Positions 382-43,449 of a DNA stretch of 64,000 nt are shown here, in pieces. The notes beneath the pieces were generated by a model that had not been told where the DNA came from, did no database searches, and saw only the letters and a program-made list of their open reading frames with translations. The stretch is from Planctomycetota bacterium (GTDB taxonomy: Bacteria > Planctomycetota > UBA8108 > JACQVS01). Made by a program: the position numbers and the translations under genes. The stretch's first letter is position 1, and each line of letters begins with the position of its first letter. The stretch is from contig JACQVS010000146.1 in NCBI GenBank assembly GCA_016209605.1, forward strand, positions 1 to 64,000, in the 5' to 3' direction.

Positions 382-1044
382 ATGGCGGATCAGCTTGCAC
401 TTACTTCATTGTGTCCCCTCGGCTCGCAGCCCACCGCGGCGGTTTCGGTCCGATGGTCGTCCGTGGCGCTGGCTGCGGCCGAGGGTACGTTTTCTTCCTT
501 GTTCGTCGACAGCGCTGGTGTGCCCCGTCTCGCGCCGGTCGATGCTTCCCTCGGGGCTGGATCCTGCGCTCTGGCCCGGATCCGGGTTTTGCTTCCTGAG
601 AATCCGGCCTTGCCGCGCTCGCTGCTGGTCCTTCCTGTTAGCCAACAGCTGCTGATCAATGGTGTCCGCCCCGCCCTTCTGAAGGTGGCGGCGCCGGGCG
701 ATATTTTGACGCTTGCCGGCCAGCACTGGCTTCTGGTCCGCCATTTTCGTCCCGAGCCCGAGGCCGTGCCGGCCGCGCTCGCCGAGGAAAACTGCCCCGT
801 GTGCGGTATGGCGCTCCTGCTTACAAAAACCATACTGCGCTGCGTGAACGGCTGCGCCTATCATTGTGAGGATCCCTCTCAGCCGGTCAATCGCTCGGGC
901 TTGCTCAACTGTTTCTTCGAATCCCCCAGTTGTGTCATCTGCGACACGGAAAAGCGTCTCGCAGACCAGCTCATTCCGGATCCGTCAAGCCTGCACTGGG
1001 TCGACTGCTTTAAAAATTTCGTGAACGGAAAGGTGGCGTCATGA
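382..1044 (+). CDS. RING/treble-clef-like zinc protein of the Ub-like operon (candidate E3 or adaptor)
   Basis: The protein has 220 residues from the ATG at 382. Residues about 80-125 form a beta-rich stretch (LLING..., PGDILTLAG, WLLVRHF) that resembles an FHA-like or similar all-beta module. Then comes a cysteine cluster: C138-x2-C141, C154-x3-C158, H161/C162, C177, and C184-x2-C187. This ligand spacing is close to, but not the same as, a canonical RING. Small RING-like proteins are known beside bacterial and archaeal Ub-like genes. The stop overlaps the next start as ATGA, so it is translationally coupled to the E1-like gene. The start is uncertain: no Shine-Dalgarno precedes 382, and a TTG at 259 is in frame. 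An E3 role is inference; it could be a structural zinc adaptor. Confidence 0.6.
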   Translation: MADQLALTSLCPLGSQPTAAVSVRWSSVALAAAEGTFSSLFVDSAGVPRLAPVDASLGAGSCALARIRVLLPENPALPRSLLVLPVSQQLLINGVRPALLKVAAPGDILTLAGQHWLLVRHFRPEPEAVPAALAEENCPVCGMALLLTKTILRCVNGCAYHCEDPSQPVNRSGLLNCFFESPSCVICDTEKRLADQLIPDPSSLHWVDCFKNFVNGKVAS

Positions 1045-2234
1045 TCGAGGCAGCGGCGCAATTATCAAATTTCCATGCTAGTCCAATCCTGAATGGGTTG
1101 ATCCAGAGCGAGCCGATCCAGCAGGGGCCGATCCAGCCCGCGGTGTCGGGCTGGGCTTGGGCGGCTCTAAACGCGCTGACGGCGGTCATGGTGGGGGTCG
1201 GCGCGATTGGCCGCGTTCTCAGCCAGCACTTATTTTGGCTTGGCATCAGGAATTTCGTTCTGGTCGATTATAAAAAATACCGCGACGTTTCCGTCTCCAC
1301 CCAGTGCCATGCGGCCGAGATCGGCCGCTACAAGGCCGCCGTCGTCGCCCAGCAGCTCCGCCGGCAGGGGGCCCGCGTGGCGGGGCTGCCCATTCCCGCC
1401 GAAGAGCTCGATCCCGGCTGGCTGCGTCCGCCCTGCATCGTGGTGGCATCGGCCGACCGGCACTCCGCCGATCTGGCCGCGCACAAGCTGGCCCTGGCTC
1501 AAAATGTGAGGTTTTACAAAGTCAATCTGGAGCCCGCGTTGATACTTTCCAGCTTTCGCTTTTATGACTACACCATGGATCCCTTGGACCGGTGCCTGGA
1601 GTGCGGCTGGGATGACTCCACTTACCTCCGGCAGCGGTCCATCCACTCCTGCGAAGACGTGAGCGAGCGCTCCACCGGCAGCCCGCGGCCCCTCAGCGAG
1701 TTGACCGCCGGTTGGGCGGCGCTGTTGATCGTTTCGTCTCTCGTCGATGCCGCCGCGGCCGAGCGGTTGCGCGGCCGGGAGTTCCTCCTCTCTCCCCTCG
1801 GGCCGGTGCTCTCGGAATCCATCTTGCCGGAGAAGACTGATTGTCTGGGCTGCCACCGGCGCTCCGGCTCGCTGGTTTATCTTGTCCAGTCTCCCGGCGA
1901 GATCCGTTTTCACGATCTCGCTCTTCAGGCCGGCTTTCAACCCGGCGAGGAGCTGTGGGTGGGCAGCTCCGGCCTCTTCGCCAGACGGTGCCGCTGCTCG
2001 AAGTGCTGCAAGGAGGTAGCCGGGCTCTGGTGGGTCAAGTTCGTGCACCAGGCCGCCGGCTGGTGCTCGTGCGGCGGCCGCCTGCTCCCTGTGCCTTTTC
2101 ATGCCTCCAGCGGCCTCTCGCGGCAGGAACTCCACGGGGTGTGGTCATCCCCGCTTTCCTCGCTCCGCGTGGGCAGGCGGGCCGCCGTGTCTCTCAAGGG
2201 GTCGGGGCGGGAAGTCACTTTCATTTTGCGTTGA
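1041..2234 (+). CDS. E1-like ThiF/MoeB-family activating enzyme with cysteine-rich C-terminal extension (E1-A)
   Basis: The protein has 397 residues. A Rossmann nucleotide-binding loop G52-V-G54-A-I-G57 is followed by the ribose-binding Asp at D76 (VLVDYKKY), as expected for adenylating E1/ThiF enzymes that activate a ubiquitin-like C-terminus. Two CxxC pairs, C185/C188 and C268/C271, match the structural zinc site of the family. C204 (IHSCEDV) lies where the thioester cysteine would be expected. Beyond about residue 290 is an unusual extension with C317, C319, C322, C323, C342 and C344, probably a second zinc site. The gene overlaps the RING-like gene by 4 nt and precedes the E2. E1 identity is well supported; which of the two modifiers it activates is inference from proximity. 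Confidence 0.86.
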   Translation: MIEAAAQLSNFHASPILNGLIQSEPIQQGPIQPAVSGWAWAALNALTAVMVGVGAIGRVLSQHLFWLGIRNFVLVDYKKYRDVSVSTQCHAAEIGRYKAAVVAQQLRRQGARVAGLPIPAEELDPGWLRPPCIVVASADRHSADLAAHKLALAQNVRFYKVNLEPALILSSFRFYDYTMDPLDRCLECGWDDSTYLRQRSIHSCEDVSERSTGSPRPLSELTAGWAALLIVSSLVDAAAAERLRGREFLLSPLGPVLSESILPEKTDCLGCHRRSGSLVYLVQSPGEIRFHDLALQAGFQPGEELWVGSSGLFARRCRCSKCCKEVAGLWWVKFVHQAAGWCSCGGRLLPVPFHASSGLSRQELHGVWSSPLSSLRVGRRAAVSLKGSGREVTFILR

Positions 2235-2267
2235 CTGGAATAACTCGTGCTCTCATGGAGGAAGTTC

Positions 2268-2891
2268 ATGCAATTTCAGCAATCCTTGGTCGGTAGTAAG
2301 GTCTGGCAATTGAAGAAGTCATCCATCCGCCGGGACCTGGAGGCGCTGGCCGGCCGCAGCCCGGTCCTGGAGATCGTCGATTACCTTGACTCGGGCCCGG
2401 AAGTCCGCGCCGTGGCCTGCTTTCAAGTTCCGACGCTCGTCCAGCCCGTGAACGGCCAGGTCTGGGTCGCGGGTCCGGTCCTGGTCGGCCTCCGCTACCA
2501 CGAAAATTTTCTTTCCAGCCCTCCCATCGCCTGGGAAGTGGCGACCCTTCTGGGGCCGCCCGAGGCCATGCATCCGAATCTTTCGCAAGCCGGAGGGCTA
2601 TGTTTAGGAGCGCCGGTGGCCGGTTTTTCGATGGAGATCCTGCATCTCATCTTCGCGGCCATCAGCCTGCAGTCCTATAACTGCATCGAATGGCAGAGTC
2701 TTGACCTCGAGGCCTCCGCTTTCGTGCGCTCCCATGCCCATTTCTTTCCCATCGTCTCCACCGGGCTTTTCGAGGAACCGGACCTCGAGCCGCGCTATCG
2801 CCGGCATAAAGGGGACTTTTCGCCGTTCGCCTTTCCGCTCTCGCCCCGGTCAGCCCGGCGTGGGACGCCGGTAGGGGGGGTCCCCGCATGA
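2268..2891 (+). CDS. E2/UBC-fold conjugating enzyme with HPN motif
   Basis: The protein has 207 residues. The start at 2268 is fixed by GGAGG at 2257-2261, six bases upstream; an in-frame GTG at 2247 has no such site. The core reads M-H102-P103-N104-L-S-Q-A-G-G-L-C112-L-G. The HPN motif and the cysteine eight residues after its Asn match the catalytic arrangement of eukaryotic E2 enzymes. A hydrophobic helical segment follows (MEILHLIFAAISLQ), then a helix around residues 134-148, as in the UBC fold. Many bacterial E2-like proteins lack the HPN, so this one is notably eukaryote-like. The expected role is to take the modifier from E1-A on C112 and pass it to a substrate. The C-terminal 40 residues are basic and probably disordered. 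Confidence 0.87.
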   Translation: MQFQQSLVGSKVWQLKKSSIRRDLEALAGRSPVLEIVDYLDSGPEVRAVACFQVPTLVQPVNGQVWVAGPVLVGLRYHENFLSSPPIAWEVATLLGPPEAMHPNLSQAGGLCLGAPVAGFSMEILHLIFAAISLQSYNCIEWQSLDLEASAFVRSHAHFFPIVSTGLFEEPDLEPRYRRHKGDFSPFAFPLSPRSARRGTPVGGVPA

Positions 2892-3832
2892 GCGACTTCT
2901 TCATCTCCAAGCCCCAGGTTGAAGAGGCTCTCCTCAAGGTCGGCTGCGCGCGGCGGTCTCCGGGCGTGTTCGCGCTTGCCGCCAAACCTCCCCTCGCCCT
3001 CTACCCTCTGCGGCTGGCCGGCGGCTGGTGGCGCTGGCTCTCATCTCCCGTCAAGGCGGGCCATGTGGCCCCGGCAGCCGTCCTGGATGCGCCGGCGCCG
3101 TCCGGCCCGTTCAAGTGGCTTGCCGCCAAGGGGAAAAAGGGGTTGCGGCTGGCGGCCGATCTTCCGGAATGCTTTGAAGACGACGCGGCCGCCATGGGCA
3201 TCCTGGAGGACGGTCTTGCGGAAGCTCTGCCAGATGGATCGTCCGGCGGACAGGCGCCGGGCCATCTCGAGGTCTGGGCCGAAGATCTGGTGTCGGCCCT
3301 GCGCCGGTTCTCTCGGGGCGATGGTTGCTCTCCTTCCATTGCCAAGCCGCAGTCCCCAGGCGCCGATCTGGTCGATTGGCTCGCGCGGCGCGGCTGGCTC
3401 GGCTCGCTCGATGGCGATGAAATCCGCATCCAGATGACCGGCCCCCAGTACTGCAATACGGTTCACCTGCAGGCCTCCGCTCCGGCCGGCGGCCTCGCCC
3501 TGGATATGGAGCTCGCCGAGGTGAACGGATGGGGCGAAGAGTCTCTGGCGGCGGCGGCGCTCCTCGCCCAGGAGGCCGGCGAACGGCTGCGGCTGGTCCG
3601 TCTGGCTCTCGTTCAACAATCGGAGCGGCGGTACCTCTCGGCCCAGGTCCATCTCGGCCGCCTCCCCGCCCGGTCGCCATGGCTTCCATTGGCCCTCGAT
3701 GCCTTGCGCGCCGCCGCATGCGTGTTAGCGAAGGAAGCGCCGGCTCTGGCGGATCCAGATCTGGCTCGGTGGATTCTTTTCAGGACTTTTGGAACCAGCA
3801 GAAAGGAGGTTAACCATGGTCGCGACGCTTGA
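2888..3832 (+). CDS. Unknown 314-residue protein conserved by position in the Ub-like operon
   Basis: I do not recognise this family. The gene is clearly real: it overlaps the E2 by 4 nt (ATGA), keeps the operon's codon bias, and its last 17 nt overlap the next gene. Residues about 1-75 look globular with a Trp-rich patch (GGWWRW). Residues about 150-300 form an alpha/beta unit with TVHLQAS, LDMELAEV and YLSAQVHLG strands and a helix LAAAALLAQEAG. This weakly recalls the YbjN/type III chaperone-like fold, which is a low-confidence guess. There is no signal peptide or membrane segment, so it is probably cytosolic. From its position between the E2 and the modifier gene it may be a substrate adaptor, E3-like factor or E2 cofactor. 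Confidence 0.8.
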   Translation: MSDFFISKPQVEEALLKVGCARRSPGVFALAAKPPLALYPLRLAGGWWRWLSSPVKAGHVAPAAVLDAPAPSGPFKWLAAKGKKGLRLAADLPECFEDDAAAMGILEDGLAEALPDGSSGGQAPGHLEVWAEDLVSALRRFSRGDGCSPSIAKPQSPGADLVDWLARRGWLGSLDGDEIRIQMTGPQYCNTVHLQASAPAGGLALDMELAEVNGWGEESLAAAALLAQEAGERLRLVRLALVQQSERRYLSAQVHLGRLPARSPWLPLALDALRAAACVLAKEAPALADPDLARWILFRTFGTSRKEVNHGRDA

Positions 3833-4109
3833 GCGCGAGATCGCCGAACCGCCTTCGGAGTTCATCGATGTGCAGGTGAAGGACCTTTCCGGCCACCAGC
3901 GCATGCGCATCAACCGGCTGAAGGCGTCAACGCGCGTCCGCGAGCTCATCGGCATGTCGCAAGCTTCCATGAGCGTCCCGCCCGGGATTGACTGGTTGCT
4001 CAGGGACTCGAAGACCTCGAGACTCCTGCGCCACGATCAATCCGTGGGCGAGGCCGCGCATGAAGGCTTCGCCGATTTGACCCTGCAGCCGGATGCCCGG
4101 CTCGGGTGA
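3816..4109 (+). CDS. Ubiquitin-like modifier A with exposed C-terminal Gly
   Basis: The protein has 97 residues. AAAGGAGGT at 3802-3810, five bases before the ATG, is the strongest ribosome binding site of the operon and fixes the start. Residues about 16-97 follow the beta-grasp pattern: a strand FIDVQVKDL, a second strand RMRINRL, a helix with TRVRELIGM, and a late strand FADLTLQPD. The chain ends in PDARLG, a single Gly at the very C-terminus, so no processing would be needed before E1 activation. Lysines K22, K36 and K66 could allow chains. The length is typical of a short N-terminal tail plus one Ub fold. The gene starts inside the preceding one and is followed by a hairpin before the JAMM gene, consistent with high expression. 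The fold is inferred by pattern, not measured. Confidence 0.74.
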   Translation: MVATLEREIAEPPSEFIDVQVKDLSGHQRMRINRLKASTRVRELIGMSQASMSVPPGIDWLLRDSKTSRLLRHDQSVGEAAHEGFADLTLQPDARLG

Positions 4110-4121
4110 TTTTTTTTCTCT

Positions 4122-4163
4122 CCGGCTGGCTTCGGGGGAGCCTTGCTCTCCGAAGCCGGCCGG
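4122..4163 (+). terminator. GC-rich hairpin between modifier A and the JAMM gene
   Basis: The arms at 4122-4135 and 4150-4163 pair over 14 bp with a single G:T pair and a 14-nt loop. The + strand has only a short T tract after it (ATTTTG), so it would be a weak terminator at best. More likely it attenuates transcription or protects the 3' end of the short modifier message, giving more modifier than downstream enzymes. It sits in the only gap of over 90 bp inside the operon. Confidence 0.5.
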
Positions 4164-4202
4164 GATTTTGATGCTCGGTTTTGTTAGTGAGGCCGGTCGA
4201 TC

Positions 4203-5294
4203 ATGTTTCACGATCCTTATGTATACGCGGTCTCGGTTGGGCGCCCTGGGGCGGCTGGGCCGCCGGCCCGACGGCCGGTAGACAAGAACTATCTCTTGCC
4301 GATCATCGATGACGGGCTGTGGTTCGCTCAGCGCCGCGGCGTCATTGGCATGGACAGGTCGCGCGCCCGCTGGGAGCTGCTGCCGGTGTTCGTGAACGGG
4401 AGCGGCGGCCAGGTCCGGAGCTTGCGCATGCGCGTTTCAGAAAGCGGCCCGGCCCTTTCGCGGGATTACTCGCTGGGCGTTTTTCAGGAACCGGCGCAGG
4501 AGCTGCTGCGGGAGCTCATGAAAGATGGCAAGTTGGGCCTCGAGGATGAAATCGTGACCCAGGTGCTTGCCTTCAGGCCCCAGCCGGCGGCTCGATCGCC
4601 GATCGCGGCTGCCGGGCCGCGCGCCGCGGCGTCGCCAGCCGTGACGCCGGTGGTGGAGGAGCGGCCGCTGCCGGTCTTGCCCGGCCGCCTGGAGGAATGG
4701 CAAGGGCGGGCAGCGGCGGTCAATCCCCAGTCTGGACAGGAGGGGGACACCCCCGTCTTCATCCTCCGCTCGGTTTTCGAGCGGGCGCGGGCCTCCTGCC
4801 GCCGGCCCGGCGAGCTGGAGGGCGGCGCGTTCCTCACCGGCCGCCTCTACCGGCAGGCGGAGCCGGTGCCGGAAATTTTTCTGGCGGTGGAAGGATCGTT
4901 CGAGGCCAGCCACGCGCTTCAGGAACGGTTCAGCTTGACGTTCACCGCCGGGACGTATGGCGCCTTCGAGGAGCAGCTCGAGCGCCGGCGCCGGCGCCTC
5001 AATCGCCCAGAGGAAATTCTCGCCGGCGTGGCCCACGGCCACGGCTTCTTGCCGGGTCTGGGCGAGGACCGACAGCCGCTTTGCCCCGCCTGTCCCAAAA
5101 GGGCGGAATGCGGCTTGCACTCGGCCTTCTATAGCAGCGATGACCTGGCTTATCATCGCGCTCTTTTCAGCCGGCTGCCGTTCGCCCTGGGTCTGGTGTT
5201 CGGCCTCGATCCACGCGAGCACGATGTGGTGCGGGCCTACGGTTACCGCGATGGCTCCATTCAGGAAAGGAGCTTTTGGCTGGTCTCGGATTGA
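4203..5294 (+). CDS. JAMM/MPN+ isopeptidase with zinc-knuckle-like insertion (JAB-A)
   Basis: The protein has 363 residues. The C-terminal half carries a JAMM metalloprotease signature: Glu in E206-G-G, H278-G-H280, and S311-x2-D314 in FYSSDD, with downstream family-like text (LAYHRALF, ALGLVFGLD). Between H280 and S311 there are 30 residues instead of the usual seven. The insert contains C294-x2-C297, C303 and H306, a likely zinc knuckle. Residues about 30-130 form a separate alpha/beta domain of unknown type, joined by a Pro/Ala-rich linker (about 125-165). The predicted role is removal of modifier A from substrates or chains, coupled to the ATPase encoded next. The start ATG at 4203 has only a weak ribosome site, so expression may depend on read-through past the hairpin. 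Confidence 0.86.
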   Translation: MFHDPYVYAVSVGRPGAAGPPARRPVDKNYLLPIIDDGLWFAQRRGVIGMDRSRARWELLPVFVNGSGGQVRSLRMRVSESGPALSRDYSLGVFQEPAQELLRELMKDGKLGLEDEIVTQVLAFRPQPAARSPIAAAGPRAAASPAVTPVVEERPLPVLPGRLEEWQGRAAAVNPQSGQEGDTPVFILRSVFERARASCRRPGELEGGAFLTGRLYRQAEPVPEIFLAVEGSFEASHALQERFSLTFTAGTYGAFEEQLERRRRRLNRPEEILAGVAHGHGFLPGLGEDRQPLCPACPKRAECGLHSAFYSSDDLAYHRALFSRLPFALGLVFGLDPREHDVVRAYGYRDGSIQERSFWLVSD

Positions 5295-5323
5295 AACAAA
5301 GAGAAAACCAAAGGAGCATGCTC

Positions 5324-7072
5324 ATGAAAATAAACCTGCCGCCGGGGGCTGACGACCCGGTCAAGAACGCCTTGTCCATCCTGGAGGACTCCTCCATGCC
5401 CCCGAAGGCACGGGCGGAGTTTCTTCTCCACAGCGCCCAGGCGCTCGGCTACGACTTGATGAATCCGCTTGCCAGGCTGCTCGACCGCTGCGACAAGGGG
5501 CGCGAGCTGGAGAAGCTCAACGCCCAGCTCGCCGCCAAGCTGGCGCAGCTCGAGGAGGAGAAGCGCCAGCCGCTCGTGCCGGAGATCTTTTTGCGCTCAG
5601 TCGATAGGGGCGATGGCGCCTGCTGGGGCCTGATCGAGTCCCAAGCCGGCCCGCTGCTCTGCCCCATGGACGGCGGCCTCACCGGCCTGAGACGGGGGGT
5701 TTACGTGCTTCTCGAGCGCTCTTCCGGGAAGATCGTCGACCGCGATGGGGTGATCGTCCCCACCGGCGAGATCGCCAAGGTCGAGGAAGTCCTCGATGGG
5801 GATCCCGTGCAGGTGATCGTCAGCCTGCACGACCGCCGTTTCAAGGCCCAGGTGTCGGAGGCGGTGCAAAGCTCCGGCGAGCTGCGTCCCGGCGCCGAGG
5901 TGCTGTTCGATGCGTCCCGGCGCTTTGTCCACGACATCCTCCACCCGCGGCTCGAGGGGGAAGATCTCCTCACGCCGGCGTCGGAGCTGTCGGGATTTTC
6001 CTTGCAAAACCTGGGCGCCCCCCATCCCGTCATCTTCGAGATCGTGAACAGCGTCAAGCGGCGCCTCCTCCATCCGGAGTGGGAAAGCCTCCTGCAGGCG
6101 CGCCAGCGCCGCAGCTACCTCTTCCACGGCATCACCGGCTCGGGAAAATCTTCCTCGATCAAAGTGATCGCCAATCTCATCGCCGATTTCATCGAGGAGC
6201 TGACCGGCGTCCGGGAGCCCAGGATGGTGGTGGCCTCGTGCGCCGATTTTTATTCTCCGTTCTTCGGCGAGTCCGAGCTCAAAGTGGCGCGCTGGTTCAA
6301 GAAGCTGGGCGCCATTGCCCGGAAGGCGGTCCTCGCCAAGGATGGGCGGCGCATCGTCCTGCCTCTTCTCGTGGTCTTCGAGGAGCTCGAAGGATTGATT
6401 CGCGGCCGCGGCGAGTTCGGCGGCTCCAGCCATCTCTTCGACCGCATCTTGTCGCTCATCCTGCACAAGATGGATTCGGTGACCAACGAGCTCGAGGCGC
6501 CGATCATCTTCATCAGCACTACCAACATGATGATGCTCTTGGATGCAGCCGGCCTCCGTCGCTTTGGCCAGCGTCAGATTATGTTCTCCGCTCTTGATGC
6601 CCTGTCGGCTTATCAGGTGCTCGAGAAGAAACTGCCGGCGGACATGCCTTACAGCACCCCTCCGGGGATCCCGTCTTCTTCGGCGCGCCGGCAGTTGCTC
6701 GAGTCGCTGATCCACTACCTCTTCGGCCGCCATGATGAACAGGCGATCGCCGAGGTCACGCTGCGTGATACATCAAAAAAAATCGTCTCTAGAAAGGATG
6801 TCATCACGGGCAGTTTTCTGGAAACCGCCTTGTGCGTAGCGATCGATGAGGTCCTCGACCGCTCCACTGCAGAGGGGGAGCTTCGGGGGATCGATGCGGA
6901 TACCATCACCCGGGCTCTCGCCCGCCAGTTCGATGCCCTGGCGGCGAACTTGCATCCCCACAATTTGCGGGATCTCGTCCCCCATCTCTTCCCCGAAGAG
7001 GCCGTTCAAATTGCCAGCGTCCGGCCGGTGAAGCGCTACGGCCGCCGGCCGGTGGATTACTACTTCCAGTAA
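5324..7072 (+). CDS. Mpa/ARC-like proteasomal AAA+ ATPase
   Basis: The protein has 582 residues. AAGGAG at 5311-5316 fits the ATG at 5324 (seven-base spacer) better than the one at 5318. Residues about 55-82 are a charged coiled coil (KGRELEKLNAQLAAKLAQL). Residues about 85-210 are beta-rich and fit OB-type domains. The AAA+ module has Walker A G269-I-T-G-S-G-K275-S, a pore-loop-like FYSPFFGESE, Walker B LLVVF-E353-E354 (Glu replaces the usual Asp), sensor Asn N401 and Arg-finger candidates R412/R413. Coiled coil, OB, then AAA+ is the order of Mpa/ARC, the unfoldase of actinobacterial proteasomes. The chain ends VDYYFQ; YFQ resembles the HbYX tail that docks ATPases on 20S cores. No core subunit is in the window. 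The gene sits between the two Ub-like modules. Confidence 0.88.
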   Translation: MKINLPPGADDPVKNALSILEDSSMPPKARAEFLLHSAQALGYDLMNPLARLLDRCDKGRELEKLNAQLAAKLAQLEEEKRQPLVPEIFLRSVDRGDGACWGLIESQAGPLLCPMDGGLTGLRRGVYVLLERSSGKIVDRDGVIVPTGEIAKVEEVLDGDPVQVIVSLHDRRFKAQVSEAVQSSGELRPGAEVLFDASRRFVHDILHPRLEGEDLLTPASELSGFSLQNLGAPHPVIFEIVNSVKRRLLHPEWESLLQARQRRSYLFHGITGSGKSSSIKVIANLIADFIEELTGVREPRMVVASCADFYSPFFGESELKVARWFKKLGAIARKAVLAKDGRRIVLPLLVVFEELEGLIRGRGEFGGSSHLFDRILSLILHKMDSVTNELEAPIIFISTTNMMMLLDAAGLRRFGQRQIMFSALDALSAYQVLEKKLPADMPYSTPPGIPSSSARRQLLESLIHYLFGRHDEQAIAEVTLRDTSKKIVSRKDVITGSFLETALCVAIDEVLDRSTAEGELRGIDADTITRALARQFDALAANLHPHNLRDLVPHLFPEEAVQIASVRPVKRYGRRPVDYYFQ

Positions 7073-7096
7073 TTTTACCAGTCAAGGAGGATTGCC

Positions 7097-7444
7097 ATGA
7101 TGTTCAAGGAACCCCAACAGGTTGCTGCAACCGCCCCCGTTTCCCGGCTCACCGCCCCGCCCCAGAGAGAGCCGGCCGGCGCCGCCGAGGGCTGCGCCGC
7201 CGCCGGGGCCAACGGCGCGTCGGTCCTGGTCCAGCACGGGATTCACTTCAAGTCCTATCCGGTGGCCGGCATGACCGTCGCCCAGGTCCGCGGGACGCTC
7301 TCCGCGCAGCTCCACATCGACCCCGCGTCGGTGGCGGTGATTGGCGGCGTGATCGTCGACGATGAAAACGCCCGCGTCGTGACCGGCAAGGACCAGCTGT
7401 TGACCTTCACCAAGAGAAGCTCGGTGCGCGGCTGCGGCCGCTGA
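7097..7444 (+). CDS. Ubiquitin-like modifier B (Prok_Ub/ThiS-like beta-grasp)
   Basis: The protein has 115 residues. AAGGAGG at 7084-7090 sets the start. Residues 1-40 are a Pro/Ala-rich tail. Residues about 42-108 look like a compact beta-grasp: strand ASVLVQHGIHF, turn and helix TVAQVRGTLSAQL, strand SVAVIGGVIV, and strand QLLTFTKRS. The C-terminus is SSVRGCGR: Gly residues occur at positions 112 and 114, but one Arg follows, so activation may need trimming unless the Arg is tolerated. This contrasts with modifier A, which ends in a bare Gly. Its place directly before E2-like, JAMM and ThiF genes matches the Ub-like protein C of PRTRC cassettes, as I remember them. Homology is by pattern only. 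Confidence 0.66.
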   Translation: MMFKEPQQVAATAPVSRLTAPPQREPAGAAEGCAAAGANGASVLVQHGIHFKSYPVAGMTVAQVRGTLSAQLHIDPASVAVIGGVIVDDENARVVTGKDQLLTFTKRSSVRGCGR

Positions 7445-7459
7445 ACGGGGAGTGTAAAC

Positions 7460-8317
7460 ATGACTCTAAAAAATCGTCAGCCCCGGTTGGCCGTGGAGCA
7501 GGTGGTGATCCGAGAGGACAGCGTCGAGTTGCATCTTCCCGGCTCTGCCGTGCAGACCCTGCCGGCCAGCGCCCTGATCGAGGCCGTCCAGGCGTACAGC
7601 ATCCGCGGCCTCGGCCGCGATGCGCTCCCCGACAACATCAAGTGGAAGGTCGAGTGCGGCAAGATGACGATCTACATCGTCGAGCTCAAGCCGGAAGTGC
7701 GCTCGGTCCTGTGGATCAGCTCGAACAGCGTGGCCCCCTACGGGCCGGAAGCCAAGTACGAGAGCTACCGGCTGGCCTTCCCCTTCGTGGTCTTGAAGGT
7801 CCCGTTCGTCAATGGGCAGTTGATCGAGGCCGCCGAGCTTTTTTACCGCAACGCCCCGTTGAGCTCTCTCGACGATGAGCTTTTCTGGTCGAACCTCCTG
7901 AACGTCAGCCCCCGTTCCCACGGGTGCACCGCCTGGGTATGCACGCAGTACCTGGCTGATGAAATGAACCAGCTCGCAGCCAAGCTGCGCCGGCCGCTCA
8001 CGGAGGTGGAGGCGCTGCACTGCTTCATCCTCCATCTTTTCGGGGGCGGCCTCAACCGGAGCAGCGAGGCGCATGAGGGCATGAGCTGCTTCGGCAAGGC
8101 GGCCATGGACAAGGTCGATCCGCGAGTCACCGACGTGACCCGTTGGCAAGCCGCCTCGGAGAAGCCGGAGTTCATCCTCGGCGTGGCGTGGAAGCCGGCC
8201 GGCCACACCATCCGCAGCTTGATCCTCGACCAGCTCGACCGCTCCGGGGCGCGCCGGGATCTCGGCGATGCGGCCGAGCTGGTCAGCTTGCTCCTGGCGC
8301 CTCGAAAGGCGGGCTGA
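7460..8317 (+). CDS. E2-like protein (Prok-E2_D / PRTRC protein B type)
   Basis: The protein has 285 residues, preceded by GGGGAG at a seven-base spacing. The central part (about 60-165) has alternating strands (MTIYIVELK, VLWISSNS, AFPFVVLKVPFVNG) and then NVSPRSHG-C156-TAWV-C161. This resembles the divergent E2-fold proteins that accompany PRTRC ThiF and JAMM proteins, in which a cysteine follows a buried strand. There is no HPN motif, so it differs from the E2 of module A. The C-terminal region (about 170-285) is alpha/beta and unassigned. Order and spacing (modifier B, this gene, JAMM-B with a 2-nt gap, ThiF-B) argue for a role with those proteins. Whether it is a catalytic E2 or only an E2-fold adaptor cannot be told from sequence. 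Confidence 0.6.
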   Translation: MTLKNRQPRLAVEQVVIREDSVELHLPGSAVQTLPASALIEAVQAYSIRGLGRDALPDNIKWKVECGKMTIYIVELKPEVRSVLWISSNSVAPYGPEAKYESYRLAFPFVVLKVPFVNGQLIEAAELFYRNAPLSSLDDELFWSNLLNVSPRSHGCTAWVCTQYLADEMNQLAAKLRRPLTEVEALHCFILHLFGGGLNRSSEAHEGMSCFGKAAMDKVDPRVTDVTRWQAASEKPEFILGVAWKPAGHTIRSLILDQLDRSGARRDLGDAAELVSLLLAPRKAG

Positions 8318-8319
8318 TC

Positions 8320-9051
8320 ATGGAGGCGGATATGGTGGCTGGAGCCATCGAAGTCATCGAAGTCCTCGCCAAGCGCCCGGGCCAGGAGCTGCCGCCGCTG
8401 GCCGAAGGCCAGCTTCGCTACGTCATGGCCGAAAACGGCCTCTTCCTCGAGCGGCGTACGGCCATGTTCACCACCTGCTGCCGCGTCGAGCGCTGCGCCG
8501 CCGGCTTGTCGCAGCATGAAGAGGCTTGCGAGTTGCTCTGCGGGCCCATCCCGAGAACGCTGGTCCGCGCCATGGTGGCCTTCTTCCGGGCCGCCTACGA
8601 GCACCACGGCGGGGAGGCCGTCCTCCTGCTTCTTTTCCACCCTTTGGAGCGGCGCTTCCGCTGGCTGTGCCCTAGCCAGACGGTGCGGGTTTACGAGGAC
8701 TGGAAGGGCCGGTGGCAAGCCGGCATGGACATCGAGTATGACGTGCCCCTGGAGCTGCCATCCGGCTTCGTCCTCTTCGGCGACGCTCACAGCCACGCCG
8801 ACCTTCCCGCCTACGCGAGCTACCTCGACAAGCAAGAGGAGCATTTCAAGGATGGGCTCCACATCGTCCTGGGCCGCCTGCAGGCGGCGCACCTGGCATG
8901 GCATATCGACTTCGTCATCGATGGAAAGCGCTTCCCCCTCGATCCTGAGCGGGTCTTCGCCGCTGGCGACTGGCCCCCCTTCGGCTCCGTGCCGCCGGCC
9001 TGGATCGAGCAAATCAACATCAAGAGCTACACGAGCAAGAAATACTGGTGA
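8320..9051 (+). CDS. JAMM/MPN+ metalloprotease (JAB-B, PRTRC protein A-like)
   Basis: The protein has 243 residues. The zinc site is textbook: H157-S-H159, seven residues, S167-x2-D170 (HSHADLPAYASYLD), with E99 in HHGGEAVLLL as the likely catalytic Glu. The N-terminal 75 residues contain five Cys (TTCCRVERC, EACELLC), possibly a further metal site. The start lies 2 nt after the upstream stop, with AAAGGCGG as ribosome site, and its stop overlaps the ThiF-B start (TGATG). The expected function is cleavage of the modifier from conjugates or trimming of a modifier precursor. That would fit modifier B, which has an Arg after its last Gly. Unlike JAB-A it has no long insert between His and Ser. 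Confidence 0.9.
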   Translation: MEADMVAGAIEVIEVLAKRPGQELPPLAEGQLRYVMAENGLFLERRTAMFTTCCRVERCAAGLSQHEEACELLCGPIPRTLVRAMVAFFRAAYEHHGGEAVLLLLFHPLERRFRWLCPSQTVRVYEDWKGRWQAGMDIEYDVPLELPSGFVLFGDAHSHADLPAYASYLDKQEEHFKDGLHIVLGRLQAAHLAWHIDFVIDGKRFPLDPERVFAAGDWPPFGSVPPAWIEQINIKSYTSKKYW

Positions 9052-9839
9052 TGGATATGGACAGCGAGATTTCTTCCCCGGAAACCGCCGCGAGCGATAA
9101 AATCCCGCTCCTCCCGCTGAAAACGGAGCTGCTCACCCGCGGCCGCGTCATCGTGGCTGGCCTGGGCGGCATCGGCTCGATCCTGGCGCCCAACCTGACT
9201 CTTTTTTTAGCGTCGCTGCGCCGCCTGCCGATCCGCATCCAGCTCATCGATGGGGACAAGTATGAAGAGCGCAATCGAGAACGCATGGAGGTGCCGGCTT
9301 TCGAAAACAAGGCGGTGGCGCTGTGCCGTCAGCTCACCGAGAAATTCGGGCGTCCGAAGCTTTACATCCGGCCGGTGGCTCAGTATGTCAACGTCGAGAA
9401 CGCCAGCGATCTCATCCAAGAGCACGATGTGGTGTTCGCGTGCTTTGACCGGCACTCCAGCCGCAAGGTGCTGAGCGACCGCTGCGCGGAGCTGGAGAAC
9501 ATCATCCTGATTTCCGGCGGCAACGACGGCGTCGAGGAGGGCTGGCGCGGCACTTACGGCAACATCCAGATCTTCCGCCGACATGTTGGCGCCGAGCTGA
9601 ATCCGCCCCTCACCCGGTTCCACCCCGAGATCCAGAAGCCCGCCGACCAGGTGCCGGTGGAGTCCTGCGCTGACCTCGCGGGCAGCTCCGCCCCGCAAAT
9701 CCTCTTCGCCAACCTCGCCGCCGCCTGCGCCATGTGCTGCGCCTTTTACCGCATCCTGAGCGATGAGGGGAAGGAGAGGATCTTCGACGAAATCTGCTTC
9801 GACATCTACGAGGGAAGGTTCGTGCCGCAGGTTTTTTAA
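9051..9839 (+). CDS. ThiF-family E1-like enzyme (E1-B, PRTRC ThiF-like)
   Basis: The protein has 262 residues, with its start overlapping the JAMM-B stop. The nucleotide loop is G37-L-G39-G40-I-G42; D67 (LIDGDK) and N75-R76 (ERNRERM) with K87 complete the adenylation site of ThiF/E1 enzymes. C206 (VESCADLAG) is the candidate thioester cysteine, followed by SSAPQIL and a helix, as in the family. There is no CxxC zinc pair, unlike E1-A, and no C-terminal extension, so it is a minimal E1. It ends the operon; transcription then meets converging genes from the - strand about 40 bp later. By position it should serve modifier B. Confidence 0.9.
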   Translation: MDMDSEISSPETAASDKIPLLPLKTELLTRGRVIVAGLGGIGSILAPNLTLFLASLRRLPIRIQLIDGDKYEERNRERMEVPAFENKAVALCRQLTEKFGRPKLYIRPVAQYVNVENASDLIQEHDVVFACFDRHSSRKVLSDRCAELENIILISGGNDGVEEGWRGTYGNIQIFRRHVGAELNPPLTRFHPEIQKPADQVPVESCADLAGSSAPQILFANLAAACAMCCAFYRILSDEGKERIFDEICFDIYEGRFVPQVF

Positions 9840-26937: not shown

Positions 26938-29241
<2,304 letters not shown>

Positions 29242-29562
29242 GCACGTTATTATAGCCGTGACGATCTTAAATCGCTGACATTAAACAGAGGAAAGCTGGC
29301 CGGTGGCGATCATGATCCGGATTTCAACGGGGATTCAAAACCCAGCGAATCGCTCGAAAAACCATTCAACTTACATTTTGCCAAGCATACCTCTCGGTCG
29401 ACATTTCTTATCATCTTTACGTGTTGACTTGACGATAGAGGGCCAAGTAGACTGGGGTTTAAAGGATAGATGTCGATGAGTTGGCACCTCCAAAATCGGT
29501 TCCCCTTTCCTGTACGCCGCACCTCGCCGTATGTTGGTTGAGCGCAGGTGCCTGAGGCTCCC
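29242..29562. promoter_or_regulatory. Divergent promoter region between the two PSD1-type clusters
   Basis: This 321-bp gap separates two oppositely directed PSD1 gene clusters. On the + strand, TTGACT at 29424-29429 and TAGACT at 29448-29453 are 18 bp apart and could drive the cluster starting at 29563. I found no convincing counterpart for the - strand. The region is AT-richer than its surroundings. No gene was seen. Confidence 0.35.
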
Positions 29563-32067
29563 ATGGTTTCAAGGCTTTCCGCGCTCCTGTTTTTGTTCCT
29601 GGCCCTGAGGTTGGCCGCGGCGGGACAAGCTGCCATCCGGGCCGGCGATTCCGGGGACATGGGGGAAAACGCCGCCGGGGCGCCGCGGGTGACCCAGCAC
29701 CAGGTCCTTCCGATCCTGCTGCGCCGGTGCACGGTCTGCCACGGATCGCACCGGCAAGAAGGAGGGCTGGACCTGCGCGCCAAGGCGGCCATGCTTCGCG
29801 GGGGGAAGTTGGGACCGGTGATCGTTCCGGGCAAGCCGGAGGAGAGCTTGATCATCGAGAAGCTCCGCTCGGGCCAGATGCCGCCCCGGGATCGGCTCGT
29901 GGAAGCGAGCGTCAAGCCGATCGAGCCGGCCGAGATCGAATTGATTGCCAGGTGGATCGCCGCGGGGGCTCCCGAGGTCGTCCTCGAGCCGGACGTTGCG
30001 ACCGCGACCCCCGATCCTCTGGTCACGGACAAGGAACGGGAATTCTGGGCCTTCCGGCCTCCATTGCCCGCCGCAGTTCCTAGCGCCCGCGACGCCGGAC
30101 GGGCCCGCAATCCCATCGATGCTTTCATCCTGGAGAAGCTGGAGCAAGTCGGGCTCAGCCTCTCGCCGGAAGCCGACCGGTCGACCTTGATGCGGAGGGC
30201 TTATTTTGACCTGACCGGGCTTCCCCCCGAACCGGCTGAGGTCCAGGCCTTCCTGGCCAACCGTGACCCGGACGCCTACGAAAACATGATCGACCGCCTG
30301 CTCTCCTCCCCTCGCCTCGGCGAGCGCTGGGGCCGATACTGGCTGGACCTGGCCGGCTACGCCGACTCGGAGGGAAAGCGGGAGCAGGACCTGCCCCGTC
30401 CCCACGCCTGGCGCTACCGCGATTATGTCATCCAGTCCCTCAACGCCGACAAGCCATACGACCGCTTCCTCCTGGAACAGGTCGCCGGCGATGAGCTGGC
30501 TGACTACGAGTCCGCTCCGGAGATCCATCAGGAGACCTACGATAACCTGGTGGCAACCGGTTTCCTGCGCATGGCCCCGGACGCCACCTGGGCGAACATC
30601 ACCGGTTACGTTCCGGACCGCCTCGAAGTGATCGCCGATGAGATCGACGTGCTGGGCTCGGCGGTGCTGGGCTTGACCTTGAAATGCGCTCGCTGCCACG
30701 ATCACAAGTTCGACCCGCTCCCGCAACGGGACTACTACCGGTTGGCGGACATCTTCAAGGGAGCCTACGACGAGTACGACTGGCTCAAGCCCGACGTCCG
30801 GCCCGGGCTTGGACCCGTCAGCCAGGACGCGCTCGGGGGGCGGCACCTGCCCTACGTCACGACCGCGGAAAGGCGGGCGTGGGAGGCGCGGGACGCCAAG
30901 GTCCGGCAGGAACTCGACGCCCTGAAGGCGATGAAACCTGCGGACAAGAAGGAGTCCGAGGAAATCGAGGGCCGGATGAGGGCGCTCGAGGCCCAGCGGC
31001 TGCCGGAACCGAGAATTCAGGCGCTGTGGGACCGCGGGGAGCCGTCGCCGACGTACATCTACCGCCGCGGCGATCCCCTGAGTCCCGGCCTCTTGGTCGG
31101 GCCGGGCGTGCCTGCCGTGCTGACCGACGGCAAGACGCCGTTTGCAGTGAAGCCTCCCTGGCCGGGGGCGAAGAAGACCGGACGGAGACTGGCGCTGGCG
31201 CGGTGGCTCACCAGGCCAGAACACCCGCTGACGGCGCGGGTGGCGGTGAACCGGCTCTGGAGGCATCACTTCGGGACGGGGATCGTCAAGACCCTCGACA
31301 ACTTCGGCAAGGCCGGCGCGCCTCCCACCCATCCCGAACTGCTGGACTGGCTGGCTCGGGAGTTCGTGAGCCAAGGCTGGAGTCTCAAGGCGATGCACCG
31401 CCTGATGATGACCAGTTCCACCTACCGGCAGAGTTCGGCCGTGACGGCTGATGGGGAAAAACTCGATCCGGACAACGCCCTCTATTCCCGCCGGCCGCTG
31501 GCCCGCCTGGATGCCGAAGCGCTCTACGACTCGCTGCTCCTCATCGCTGGCCGCCTGGATGAGAACCGGTTCGGCAGGGCCGATCCGGTTCAGGTACGCC
31601 CGGACGGCCTGGTGACGCCCGCCGGGACGGCGCGCGGCTGGCGCCGGCTCATTTACGTGCAGCAGTCGCGGAAGCAAATCCCCACGCACCTTGAGACCTT
31701 CGACTTCCCGCCAATGAATCCGAACTGTGTCGAGCGGCGCGACTCGACCGTGGTCCCGCAGGCGCTCCACCTGATGAATAACGGCATGGTTTACAGCCTG
31801 GCCGAGCAATTCGCCGCTCGTGTGAGCCGCGCGGTCGGAACCGACCCGGCGAAGCGGCTCGAGATGGTTTACTGGATCGCCTTGAGCCGCCCACCCAGCG
31901 CTGAGGAGGAGCGGCTCGGAATGGAAGCTTTGGACCATCTGGCGGACCGGTGGAACGAGCACTTTGCCGCCGCCGGGAAGCCGGACCATGACGCGGCCGG
32001 CCTGAGCGCGCTGGCGGCTTTCTGTCACGCCATCATGAACTCGGCCGGCTTCCTTTACGTGGATTGA
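29563..32067 (+). CDS. PSD1 protein: cytochrome C-like PSC1, DUF1549 and DUF1553
   Basis: The protein has 834 residues with a signal peptide (LSALLFLFLALRLAAAGQA). Residues about 45-120 are the planctomycete cytochrome C (PSC1) domain with C56-T-V-C59-H60 and RSGQMPPRD. DUF1549 runs from about 180 to 390 (RNPIDAFILEKLEQVGLS, WLDLAGYADSEGK, KCARCHDHKFDPLPQRDYY). DUF1553 runs from about 540 to 790 (RLALARWLTRPEHPLTARV, HPELLDWLAREFVSQGWSLK, NCVERRDSTVVPQALHLMNN). This is the full-length planctomycete architecture. It is followed after 11 bp by a DUF1501 gene, the usual partner. An extracytoplasmic, possibly redox-linked role is expected, with details unknown. Confidence 0.95.
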   Translation: MVSRLSALLFLFLALRLAAAGQAAIRAGDSGDMGENAAGAPRVTQHQVLPILLRRCTVCHGSHRQEGGLDLRAKAAMLRGGKLGPVIVPGKPEESLIIEKLRSGQMPPRDRLVEASVKPIEPAEIELIARWIAAGAPEVVLEPDVATATPDPLVTDKEREFWAFRPPLPAAVPSARDAGRARNPIDAFILEKLEQVGLSLSPEADRSTLMRRAYFDLTGLPPEPAEVQAFLANRDPDAYENMIDRLLSSPRLGERWGRYWLDLAGYADSEGKREQDLPRPHAWRYRDYVIQSLNADKPYDRFLLEQVAGDELADYESAPEIHQETYDNLVATGFLRMAPDATWANITGYVPDRLEVIADEIDVLGSAVLGLTLKCARCHDHKFDPLPQRDYYRLADIFKGAYDEYDWLKPDVRPGLGPVSQDALGGRHLPYVTTAERRAWEARDAKVRQELDALKAMKPADKKESEEIEGRMRALEAQRLPEPRIQALWDRGEPSPTYIYRRGDPLSPGLLVGPGVPAVLTDGKTPFAVKPPWPGAKKTGRRLALARWLTRPEHPLTARVAVNRLWRHHFGTGIVKTLDNFGKAGAPPTHPELLDWLAREFVSQGWSLKAMHRLMMTSSTYRQSSAVTADGEKLDPDNALYSRRPLARLDAEALYDSLLLIAGRLDENRFGRADPVQVRPDGLVTPAGTARGWRRLIYVQQSRKQIPTHLETFDFPPMNPNCVERRDSTVVPQALHLMNNGMVYSLAEQFAARVSRAVGTDPAKRLEMVYWIALSRPPSAEEERLGMEALDHLADRWNEHFAAAGKPDHDAAGLSALAAFCHAIMNSAGFLYVD

Positions 32068-32078
32068 AAGGTGAGGCG

Positions 32079-33563
32079 ATGTCAAGACCAGATGATCGAG
32101 AATCGGCCGGAGCAGAGCCCATGAGCCGCCGGAGTTTTTTCCAGCAAGTGTCCGGCGGCATCTACGGGGCGGCGTTGACCTGCCTCCTGGCCCAGGACTT
32201 CCGGAGCGGCCCTGGCCTCCTGGCGGCGGAAGGGCCGGGGAATCGCCCTTCCGACCTCAAGCCGCGCCAGCCTCATTTCACGCCGAGGGCCAGATCGGTC
32301 ATCCACTTGTTCATGAACGGCGGCCCCAGCCAGATGGACCTGTTCGACCCCAAACCCATCCTCGACCAGGAACACGGCCGACAGTACTTCGACAAGATCG
32401 CGGGCGAGGTCGAGAATCCTCAGAGCGCGGGCGCTCTGATGCGAAGCCCCTTCAAATTCAAACAGCACAGCCAGTGCGGCATGTGGGTCTCCGAAGCGTT
32501 GCCGCACCTCAGCAAGCAGGTGGATGACATCGCGCTGATCCGCTCGATGCACACCACCAACCTCACCCACGAGCCCGCGGTTTACCTGATCCAATCGGGC
32601 AAGATGGGACCGGGCAGGCCGACGCTGGGCGCGTGGGTGGTGTACGGATTGGGGAGCGAATGCCAGAACCTGCCCGCCTACGTCGTGCTCGATGATCCGC
32701 GGGGATTGCCGGTGAACGGCGTGGAGAACTGGCAGGCGGGTTTCCTCCCGCCGATTTTTCAGGGGACTCGCTTCCGCTCCACCGGCTCGCCGGTGCTGAA
32801 TCTCCGCCCCGACATGGACCGGCCTGCCGAGGTGGCGCGGGTGGAACGAGAACTGCTGGCCCGCCTCGACCGGCTCCACCAGCGCCAGCGCCCCGGCCAG
32901 CCCAACCTCGAGGCCCGCATCGCCAGCTATGAACTGGCCGCTCGCATGCAGTTGGCGGCGACCGATGCCCTGGACATCTCCAAGGAGAGCGCGGCGATCC
33001 AGGAGATGTACGGCGTGGGGCGCGAGCCGACCGACTCCTACGGCCGCCGGTGTCTCATCGCCCGCCGGCTGGTCGAGCGCGGCGTGCGCTTCGTGCAGCT
33101 CTACATCAACGGCCAGATCTGGGACAACCACGCCGCGCTCGCGACCGACCTCAGGGCCGCTTGCGAACGCACCGACCAGCCGATCGCCGCTCTCTTGCGG
33201 GACCTCAAGGAGCGCGGGCTGTTCGCCAGCACCCTGGTGGTTTGGGGCGGGGAGTTCGGCCGGCTACCCATCGCCCAGCTCCCCCCGGACAAGGACGAGC
33301 GCAAGGCCGGGCGCGACCACAACAAGAACGCCTTCTCCTCCTGGATGGCGGGCGCCGGAATCAAGGGCGGAACCACCTACGGAGCCACCGACGAACTTGG
33401 CCTGGCGGCGGTCGAAAACCGGGTGAGCGTGCCCGACTGGCACGCCACCATCCTGCACCTGCTCGGCCTTCACCACGATCAACTCTTCTTCGAGCAGAAC
33501 GGCCTCAAGGAGAAACTGACCGGCGTGAACGAAGCTCAAGTCGTGAGGGGGATACTGGCATGA
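32079..33563 (+). CDS. DUF1501 secreted protein, partner of the PSD1 gene
   Basis: The protein has 494 residues. GGTGAGG precedes the ATG at 32079. The N-terminus has a Tat-like SRRSFFQQVSGGIYGAALT. Core motifs match the family and the paralogue at 25478: SVIHLFMNGGPSQMDLFDPK, LIRSMHTTNLTHEPAVYLI, TLVVWGGEFGRLPIAQLP, RDHNKNAFSSWMAGAGIKGG, WHATILHLLGLHHDQLF. The stop overlaps the start of the NHL gene (ATGA), so the four genes from 29563 to 35770 look like one operon. Confidence 0.95.
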   Translation: MSRPDDRESAGAEPMSRRSFFQQVSGGIYGAALTCLLAQDFRSGPGLLAAEGPGNRPSDLKPRQPHFTPRARSVIHLFMNGGPSQMDLFDPKPILDQEHGRQYFDKIAGEVENPQSAGALMRSPFKFKQHSQCGMWVSEALPHLSKQVDDIALIRSMHTTNLTHEPAVYLIQSGKMGPGRPTLGAWVVYGLGSECQNLPAYVVLDDPRGLPVNGVENWQAGFLPPIFQGTRFRSTGSPVLNLRPDMDRPAEVARVERELLARLDRLHQRQRPGQPNLEARIASYELAARMQLAATDALDISKESAAIQEMYGVGREPTDSYGRRCLIARRLVERGVRFVQLYINGQIWDNHAALATDLRAACERTDQPIAALLRDLKERGLFASTLVVWGGEFGRLPIAQLPPDKDERKAGRDHNKNAFSSWMAGAGIKGGTTYGATDELGLAAVENRVSVPDWHATILHLLGLHHDQLFFEQNGLKEKLTGVNEAQVVRGILA

Positions 33564-41716: not shown

Positions 41717-42193
41717 TCACCCGTGTGCCGGGCGGTCTTCTTCATGCCACACGAGGGTGGCCGTGATCCTGGCCGCGCCGGCCCCCGAATGACGGAAGCT
41801 CACGAAGGGATGATCGACCTCGCCGTCCCCTTGGGGGGGAGAATGTGTTTCCGGAATCCGGCCCCAGGTCCGGCCTGCGGTCACCTTCTCGCAAGCCGGT
41901 GACGAAACCAGCTTCAACTCGACGGGTTTCCCTTTCCGGTTCGTGGTCCTCCAGATGATCTCGGAGTCTCCCGGGTGGCTGCCCTGGATCAGGGCCGGCC
42001 TTTCCCCCTTGAGGATGTCCGTCTTGACGTCCCTGGCGGTAGCCTCGCTGCTGCCGCGCGACTTCCCCGGGCCCACGACCACCTTGAGCGGATCTATTTC
42101 GAAGTGGGAGATGTCCATCTCGCCCTCGACGAGCTCAAGCCAGCCCTCCAACGAATGGTTGGTAAAAGGGCGGGATTGACGAAGGAATAGCAC
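41717..42193 (-). pseudogene. C-terminal fragment of a secreted polysaccharide-lyase-like gene
   Basis: The open stretch (158 codons) has a beta-rich character: MDISHFEIDPLKVVVGPG, VKTDILKGERPALIQG, PVELKLVSSPACEKV, FVSFRHSGAGAARITATLVW. It has no signal peptide or ribosome site, and its beginning near 42190 is featureless. It resembles the final sandwich of heparinase/alginate-lyase-like proteins and ends 15 bp before the start of the intact lyase. Most likely it is the tail of a second lyase whose catalytic part was lost when the BrnTA cassette region formed. The family assignment is weak. Confidence 0.45.
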
Positions 42194-42230
42194 TCCTTGG
42201 CGATGTCCTTTTTGACCGGAAGATTGGTAT

Positions 42231-42281
42231 TTTCGACTAGGAGGCTGCGGTTGTCAAAGGTAAAAAACACCAAGATTCTGG
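42231..42281 (+). repeat. 51-bp direct repeat, left copy, flanking BrnTA
   Basis: The 51 bases starting TTTCGACTAGGAGG are repeated at 43256-43306 with three mismatches (48/51). The pair encloses the toxin-antitoxin cassette and about 1 kb of AT-richer DNA. It could be the target duplication, attachment site or recombination scar of an inserted unit. Confidence 0.8.
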
Positions 42282-42398
42282 GAGAGTGCAGCAATGATAT
42301 CCGAAAGTGATGTGAATGAGACTCAGCTCCGGATCGAACCTTCGATGAGTTCTCGCGGTTCCGGCTGCGAAAGACTGCACTCAATCCAAAATCTCAGC

Positions 42399-42433
42399 TT
42401 GAAAAATACATATTTTTATGCTAATATATGTAT
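42399..42433 (+). promoter_or_regulatory. BrnTA promoter with overlapping inverted-repeat operator
   Basis: TTGAAA (42399-42404), a 17-bp spacer and TAATAT (42422-42427) form a near-consensus sigma-70 promoter. An inverted repeat ATACATAT (42406-42413) and ATATGTAT (42426-42433), with 12 bp between, covers the spacer and the -10 to +1 region. BrnA antitoxins are ribbon-helix-helix repressors that bind their own promoter, so this is the probable operator. The start point would fall near 42434, at a GTG in frame with BrnT, giving an almost leaderless message. Confidence 0.75.
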
Positions 42434-42757
42434 GTGCCCAAGAAAGAGCGCTTTCAGCTTGGTGAACTTGAGTTTATCTGGGATTGGAATAAAGCTCAGT
42501 TGAATGCAAAAAAACATGGAGTGTCCTTTGAAGAGGCAGCTACTTCCTGGCTTGATCCTAGAGCGATTGAAAGATTTGATAAAGAGCATGCCGGCCCAGA
42601 GGATCGCTGGATTCGGCTAGGCATGAGTTTACGAGGAGCTCTGGTGGTCTGCTGGTGGACAGTCCGCGTTTCTAGGGGAAAAGAAGTTTTGCGAATCATC
42701 GGAGCCAGGAGGGCGGCAAAAAGTGAAAGGAGTTTGTATGAAAAAGAAAATCCGTGA
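42428..42757 (+). CDS. brnT: BrnT-family toxin (ribonuclease-like)
   Basis: The frame gives 109 residues from the ATG at 42428; because of the promoter position an in-frame GTG at 42434 (107 residues) may be the true start. The BrnT pattern is clear: LEFIWDWNKAQLNAKKHGVS, FEEAATSWLDP, EDRWIRLGMSLRGALVVCWW, LRIIGARRAAKSERSLYE. BrnT is a RelE-fold RNase that inhibits translation until bound by BrnA. The stop overlaps the antitoxin start by 20 bp. Base composition is AT-richer than the surrounding genes, a sign of transfer. Confidence 0.93.
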   Translation: MYVPKKERFQLGELEFIWDWNKAQLNAKKHGVSFEEAATSWLDPRAIERFDKEHAGPEDRWIRLGMSLRGALVVCWWTVRVSRGKEVLRIIGARRAAKSERSLYEKENP

Positions 42758-43438: not shown

Positions 43439-43449
43439 GAATTTCTGCA

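Follow-up and report, generated by a model that had tools for sequence, protein, structure and literature searches.

The 64,000-nucleotide stretch analyzed here (hereafter, the window; positions 1 to 64,000 of contig JACQVS010000146.1 from a Planctomycetota bacterium) carries, at positions 382-9839 of the + strand, an operon in which two sets of ubiquitin-like conjugation genes flank an AAA+ ATPase of the Mpa/ARC type. Eleven packed genes had been described here by a first-pass annotation made from the sequence alone, and gene calling found all eleven open reading frames (ORFs) present and intact. Intergenic distances, from the first gene to the last, are −4, 33, −4, −17, 93, 29, 27, 15, 2 and −1 bp. 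The first set consists of an FHA-like/RING protein, E1a, E2a, a chaperone-like protein, the modifier UbA and the peptidase JAMM1; the second consists of the modifier UbB, the B protein, JAMM2 and E1b, and follows a PRTRC-like C-B-A-ThiF order. The genes, all on the + strand, are as follows.

382..1044, +, putative E3 with an FHA-like N-terminus (pattern only) and a C-terminal RING-like zinc domain; Cys/His ligands aligned in 7 orthologues
1041..2234, +, E1a, a ThiF/UBA-type E1 predicted to serve UbA; CxxC zinc pairs, candidate catalytic Cys204; Pfam ThiF 1.1e-6
2268..2891, +, E2a, ubiquitin-conjugating-enzyme family; HPN and Cys112
2888..3832, +, conserved accessory protein of 314 amino acids (aa); possible duplicated type III secretion chaperone-like fold
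3816..4109, +, UbA, beta-grasp-like modifier of 97 aa; C-terminal Gly (ends ...ARLG-COOH)
4203..5294, +, JAMM1 peptidase with a Cys-rich insert; E-HxH-SxxD
5324..7072, +, Mpa/ARC-like AAA+ ATPase: coiled coil, proteasomal OB domain, single AAA module; Pfam AAA 1.6e-11, Prot_ATP_ID_OB_C 2e-4
7100..7444, +, UbB, modifier similar to PRTRC C; CGR tail after a conserved Gly
7460..8317, +, B protein with Cys161; candidate for a second E2, of the prokaryotic E2 family D type
8320..9051, +, JAMM2, PRTRC A-like peptidase; NCBIfam PRTRC_A 1.7e-11, Pfam DUF2016 7.7e-6
9051..9839, +, E1b, PRTRC ThiF-like E1 with a candidate catalytic Cys; PRTRC_ThiF 9.9e-5

The first base of the window is the start of a 78-kb contig of a metagenome-assembled genome (MAG; G000) of 6.2 Mb that is 80% complete. 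Since the operons of relatives also start with the RING gene, the operon looks complete. Syntenic homologues were found for every one of the RING protein, E1a, E2a, the 314-aa protein, UbA, JAMM1 and the ATPase.

Family assignments and conserved residues

The profile of the ATPase family matched ARC/Mpa structures in the PDB over the full length (6e-96). This homology, together with the coiled coil, the OB domain and the single AAA module, places the protein in the Mpa/ARC group, as the first-pass annotation had proposed. The pore loop of the window protein reads FFG, and the family mostly retains an aromatic-hydrophobic-Gly sequence at this site. A genome contig scan using the window ATPase alone gave no match, and a scan using the E2 alignment retrieved three named loci.

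The first conjugation set was largely as initially predicted. When a profile of eight E2a orthologues was compared with the PDB, all 56 of 56 matches were E2/UBC enzymes (best E 4.8e-4), with the HPN motif and the Cys in register; the N, Cys and Gly are invariant in the eight sequences, and E2a thus combines a UBC profile with HPN and the catalytic Cys. In E1a, the first CxxC and the following Cys are invariant in nine orthologues, and both E1-like proteins of the operon match ThiF families, as listed above. Two orthologues of the RING protein match Prok-RING_1 at 2.1e-4 and 2.5e-5, which is below the Pfam cut-off, and the window protein itself has no Prok-RING_1 match in Pfam. Both JAMM proteins were confirmed: E206, H278, H280, S311 and D314 of JAMM1, along with three Cys in the loop after HxH, are invariant in eight of eight orthologues, an orthologue matches Prok-JAB at 6.5e-5, and E, HxH and SxxD of JAMM2 are kept in six of six homologues. 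The Gly of UbA is invariant in 14 of 14 homologues and is the last residue in eight of them, the window protein included; the remaining homologues carry 1-7 residues past the Gly and therefore would need trimming. Weak full-length matches of UbA to SAMP1 were seen in the PDB (0.12). The first-pass annotation called two beta-grasp modifiers; both small proteins have a conserved Gly in the last position or close to it, and the fold itself is considered below.

The 2888-3832 gene had been annotated as a divergent E2-like protein. Its AlphaFold model (predicted local distance difference test, pLDDT, 69) gave ExsC, VecA, SycE and SycT as top Foldseek matches (probability 0.8-1.0, E 3e-3 to 0.2), which is suggestive of a duplicated type III secretion chaperone-like fold (best E 3e-3), and there is no invariant Cys among its homologues. 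An E2 role for this gene was rejected on these two grounds, and the better candidate for a second E2 is encoded at 7460-8317. No useful direct match to Pfam, NCBIfam or PADLOC was obtained with the products of 2888-3832, 7460-8317 or 4203-5294.

The genes of the second set were compared with ten plasmid protein families by hhalign. The best match was to PRTRC A for JAMM2 (9e-15), to PRTRC ThiF for E1b (9e-10) and to PRTRC C for UbB (1.2e-4). UbB aligns with PRTRC C and with phage homologues that end in [AS]Gx[KR]G, and the candidate catalytic Cys of E1b is kept in seven sequences, within one column. The B protein matched PRTRC B at 0.16 directly and at 0.027, with the Cys aligned, once phage intermediates were added, while the other nine families scored 0.21 or worse. 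Judged by these profiles, genes 8-11 would correspond to PRTRC C, B, A and ThiF in this order; the correspondence is firm for A and ThiF, moderate for C and weak for B.

The Cys in the WxCT motif of the B protein is invariant. A phage homologue matches Prok-E2_D at 0.012 and its Cys aligns with that of the B protein; the phage homologues also carry an E2-D-like N-I-S...ICxG motif. There was no match to the B protein among plasmids or in INPHARED. Since the AlphaFold model of the B protein is poor (pLDDT 64) and Foldseek returned nothing with it, the E2 assignment is not based on fold. We take the B protein as the likely, though weakly supported, second E2, the connection being bridged through phage relatives only. 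Two full E1-E2-JAMM-ubiquitin-like protein (Ubl) sets are the most likely content of the operon, and the second E2 is their least certain member.

Recurrence of the operon and exchange of its second half

The distribution of the operon was surveyed in 392 Planctomycetota genomes, with the JAMM1 core counted at E below 1e-18, and in 297 genomes of a second phylum, that of L040 (an Acidobacteriaceae record). The core was found in 8 of the 392 Planctomycetota genomes. Three of these (G000, G084 and G166) are of the window type, and in the other five (G041, G043, G046, G076 and G209, the last with its operon split across two contigs) the same core is followed, after the ATPase, by PafA-Pup(-Dop), making a Ub/Pup hybrid. 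In the second phylum six genomes carry the core: two near-identical ones (G628 and G612) are of the window type, and four, including L040, are of the Pup type. With an unclassified MAG (L038) of the Pup type, this gives five window-type and ten Pup-type loci in two phyla, and the Pup module is thus a commoner downstream partner of this ATPase than the PRTRC-like module. Beyond the ATPase, the Pup-type operons encode a Pup ligase (E as low as 1.6e-97) and a 61-73 aa protein whose end, in the cases read, is GGQ, GGE or [PS]GE; usually another Pup-ligase homologue is encoded as well. Cascade B, as we call the second set, occupies the slot that the Pup module holds in these sister operons; in the window operon no PafA-type ligase or Pup adjoins the ATPase, and no Pup ligase was found in G084 and G166.

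G000 does contain one Pup/ligase pair, unlinked to the operon, on contig C186 (L072:8478-10702), where a Pup-like protein ending in RGAE is encoded beside a single PafA/Dop-like ligase. This ligase has an inserted hydrophobic, probably transmembrane stretch, and a similar pair is present in G005 (L075). Another locus of G005 (L074:718-3267) consists of a RING gene, a 64-aa ORF that fuses the start of E1a in frame to the end of the ATPase, and then PafA, Pup and Dop; either the conjugation genes were lost by internal deletion or the locus is misassembled.

Linkage of the two halves could be followed in several assemblies. In G628 and G612, the genes from E1a or UbA through ThiF are on one contig. 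In G166, contig C802 has JAMM1 and the start of the ATPase, contig C46 runs from the ATPase to ThiF, and the two share an overlap of 126 bp with 100% identity; in G084 a contig break falls between the ATPase and C. The B gene occurs in 3 of the 392 Planctomycetota genomes, and all three carry the JAMM1 core. In the ATPase tree, six window-type rows, including one from a phage, separate from ten Pup-type rows (support 100/100), and in the JAMM1 tree four window-type rows separate from eight Pup-type rows (95/92); both trees are unrooted, and which side is a clade is unproven. Because the ATPase and JAMM1 of window-type genomes both separate from those of Pup-type genomes, the two halves are co-inherited. 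The outcomes that would have spoken against the first-pass annotation did not occur: E2a and the ATPase belong to the families it had named, and both halves travel together in five genomes.

The phage row comes from viral contig IMGVR_UViG_3300023281_001371 (G392), which encodes a phage DNA polymerase (3e-121) and UvsX (3.5e-51). At 28002-33299 (L082/L085/L086) it carries ATPase-C-B-A-ThiF and none of the first six genes of the operon. Sixteen other viral contigs (L104-L119) contain PRTRC-like JAMM and ThiF genes without the ATPase, most of them with a B-like or Ubl gene. Many of these cassettes adjoin a phage RNA polymerase beta′-like gene and a second ThiF-like gene; their Ubls end in PAGxKG, and many have an N-terminal extension (Rho_N-like in one).

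Recurrence of the gene order in four other genomes is far beyond chance. Since the whole arrangement recurs in these genomes, from two phyla, it is not an assembly artefact. Close relatives have Pup tagging in place of the second pathway, and a phage has the motor together with only the second pathway; we therefore regard the arrangement as genuine and mobile, and as a means, apparently undescribed so far, by which bacteria join protein tagging and unfolding.

Proposed pathway and competing explanations

Proceeding from the observed gene content and order, conservation of active residues, co-inheritance and module exchange, we consider it reasonably probable that the operon encodes two orthogonal ubiquitin-like conjugation/deconjugation cascades served by one Mpa/ARC-type hexameric unfoldase. 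In cascade A, E1a would adenylate the C-terminal Gly of UbA and transfer the modifier via Cys204 to Cys112 of E2a, the RING protein would pick the substrates, and JAMM1 would take UbA off, like Rpn11 beside its ATPase. In cascade B, JAMM2 would trim the C-terminal tail of UbB, E1b would activate it, and the B protein (Cys161) would be its E2. The coiled-coil/OB collar of the ATPase would recognize tagged proteins and its pore would thread them; acting as an unfoldase/segregase, the ATPase would remodel or extract tagged proteins, and the two JAMM proteins would recycle the tags. Each of these biochemical steps, including which E2 serves which tag, is predicted from sequence.

Several observations weigh against this pathway. 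Window-type ATPases share a Walker B motif ending in EE (not DE), present also in the window protein, and a shorter Arg-finger loop, and these changes may alter ATPase activity. The beta-grasp fold of both modifiers is weakly supported, and so is the B protein as an E2: it has no direct family match in Pfam or NCBIfam and no fold match, and the His found downstream of the Cys in type 6d E2s is present in the window protein and absent in the phage and second-phylum members. Finally, G000 is 80% complete, so the lack of a 20S proteasome is unproven there, although carriers that are 90-95% complete are also without one.

The last point bears on the explanation that the ATPase unfolds tagged proteins for a protease encoded elsewhere, such as ClpP, HslV or another chamber. 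The kinship of the ATPase to Mpa/ARC and the Pup-type sister operons speak for degradation, as does the sole PF00227 match, a protein of G166 that reads as HslV-like. However, no PF00227 protein was found in G000 or in eight of the nine other genomes searched, several of them 90-95% complete, the operon contains no protease gene, and the C-termini of window-type ATPases are unlike each other and lack a GQYL/HbYX 20S-docking tail. We therefore consider degradation unlikely, if deserving of attention, and the turnover suggested initially, taken as proteasomal, is not supported. Because most carriers have no detectable 20S proteasome and the docking tail is not conserved, the ATPase is probably a tag-directed unfoldase/segregase.

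It could also be that the halves are independent neighbors, namely, a unit of RING, E1, E2 and JAMM genes next to a mobile, PRTRC-like cassette that arrived with an ATPase of its own. The phage contig with the ATPase and C-B-A-ThiF but no first half would fit this, and so would the 16 viral contigs with a B/JAMM/ThiF/Ubl-like unit, whole or in part, without the ATPase. Yet the ATPase follows JAMM1 in Pup-type operons too and so belongs with the first half as well, the genes overlap or nearly abut throughout, and the JAMM1 and ATPase trees both split the two types, which makes mere adjacency rather improbable. Anti-phage defence, the other use initially suggested, would relate the operon to the Bil, Bub and CBASS conjugation systems, which function in defence or have been assigned to putative immune pathways (PMC13373217, PMC10097602), and would agree with the sporadic spread of the core in both phyla. 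PADLOC (2023 models, which may predate Bub) gave no system match, only partial resemblances of the E1 and ATPase proteins (E1-E2 and IetA); no defence genes were seen flanking the operons inspected, and a phage itself carries the second half. A defence role is unsupported and has a small chance of being correct. A degenerate or inactive locus, or an assembly chimera, might be suspected from the 20-30% identity of the window proteins to their relatives, the long branch of the window ATPase and its Walker B change; with intact ORFs, conserved catalytic residues and an identical gene order in four other genomes from two phyla, this is contradicted already and hardly credible.

Two cascades served by one segregase thus remain our preferred explanation, in which the self-contained tagging, editing and unfolding pathway of the first-pass annotation survives without its suggested uses; the PRTRC likeness of the second half and the Pup-bearing sister operons had been missed. 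As the Pup module and cascade B occupy one slot, each is suggested to supply a second tag for one motor. It follows as a tentative and rather doubtful extension that the ATPase is a hub reading two tags at once, with an interchangeable second tag module (a Ubl cascade here, Pup in the sister operons). If so, Ubl and Pup tagging would meet at a single motor in those operons, and the motor and the second cascade would have been taken up by phages as a portable unit.

Relation to known systems

Ubiquitin-like conjugation by E1/E2/E3 and Pup tagging with its proteasomal ATPase are usually regarded as two inventions that bacteria made separately. In the window operon and the sister operons, Ubl conjugation and proteasome-type/Pup machinery are brought together in a single operon with one motor, apparently with no proteasome. 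Every component family is known, and it is the combination that appears new; no description of it was found in the literature, of which our coverage is incomplete, so a prior description is possible. Such operons would offer small, testable systems for how AAA+ motors came to read tags before or apart from proteolysis, which bears on the origin of the ubiquitin-proteasome system, and they show a motor-plus-conjugation cassette carried by a phage.

The second set corresponds to operon type 6d, in which a Ubl with a C-terminal Gly goes with a JAB protein that has an N-terminal domain, an E1 and an E2-like protein whose Cys has a His downstream of it (Iyer 2006, PMC1779556). The order C (Ubl), B (E2-like), A (JAMM with DUF2016) and ThiF is shared with PRTRC, and homology is profile-confirmed for A, C and ThiF. 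Unlike PRTRC, whose canonical order is ParB-E-C-F-B-A-ThiF, the window operon has no ParB, E or F, its set comes after a proteasome-type ATPase and another set of conjugation genes, and its scores are below NCBIfam cut-offs. With the Pup-proteasome system (planctomycete Pup loci, PMC2588565) the operon shares the ATPase architecture, and in the sister operons the slot is taken by PafA, Pup and, in many cases, Dop; in contrast, the window has a PRTRC-like module in place of the Pup module, no 20S proteasome was found in its genome, and its ATPase lacks the GQYL tail.

The first set shares a RING protein, E1, E2, JAMM and a small Ubl with a conserved terminal Gly with bacterial RING/E1/E2/JAB/Ubl operons, reportedly described by Burroughs in 2011 (Pfam Prok-RING_1); the simple versions of these have neither an ATPase nor a second cascade. 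Simple Ub-E1-E2-JAMM operons without the ATPase are common in Planctomycetota (L047-L053), several of them with RING and membrane proteins. The logic of E1, E2, JAMM and modifier is also that of Bil, Bub and type II CBASS, which to our knowledge have one cascade each and no proteasome-type ATPase.

Rfam and tRNA scans of the window gave no matches. Its GC content falls to 0.54 at 42001-44000, next to a − strand gene for a 1470-aa protein, and is 0.59-0.70 elsewhere.

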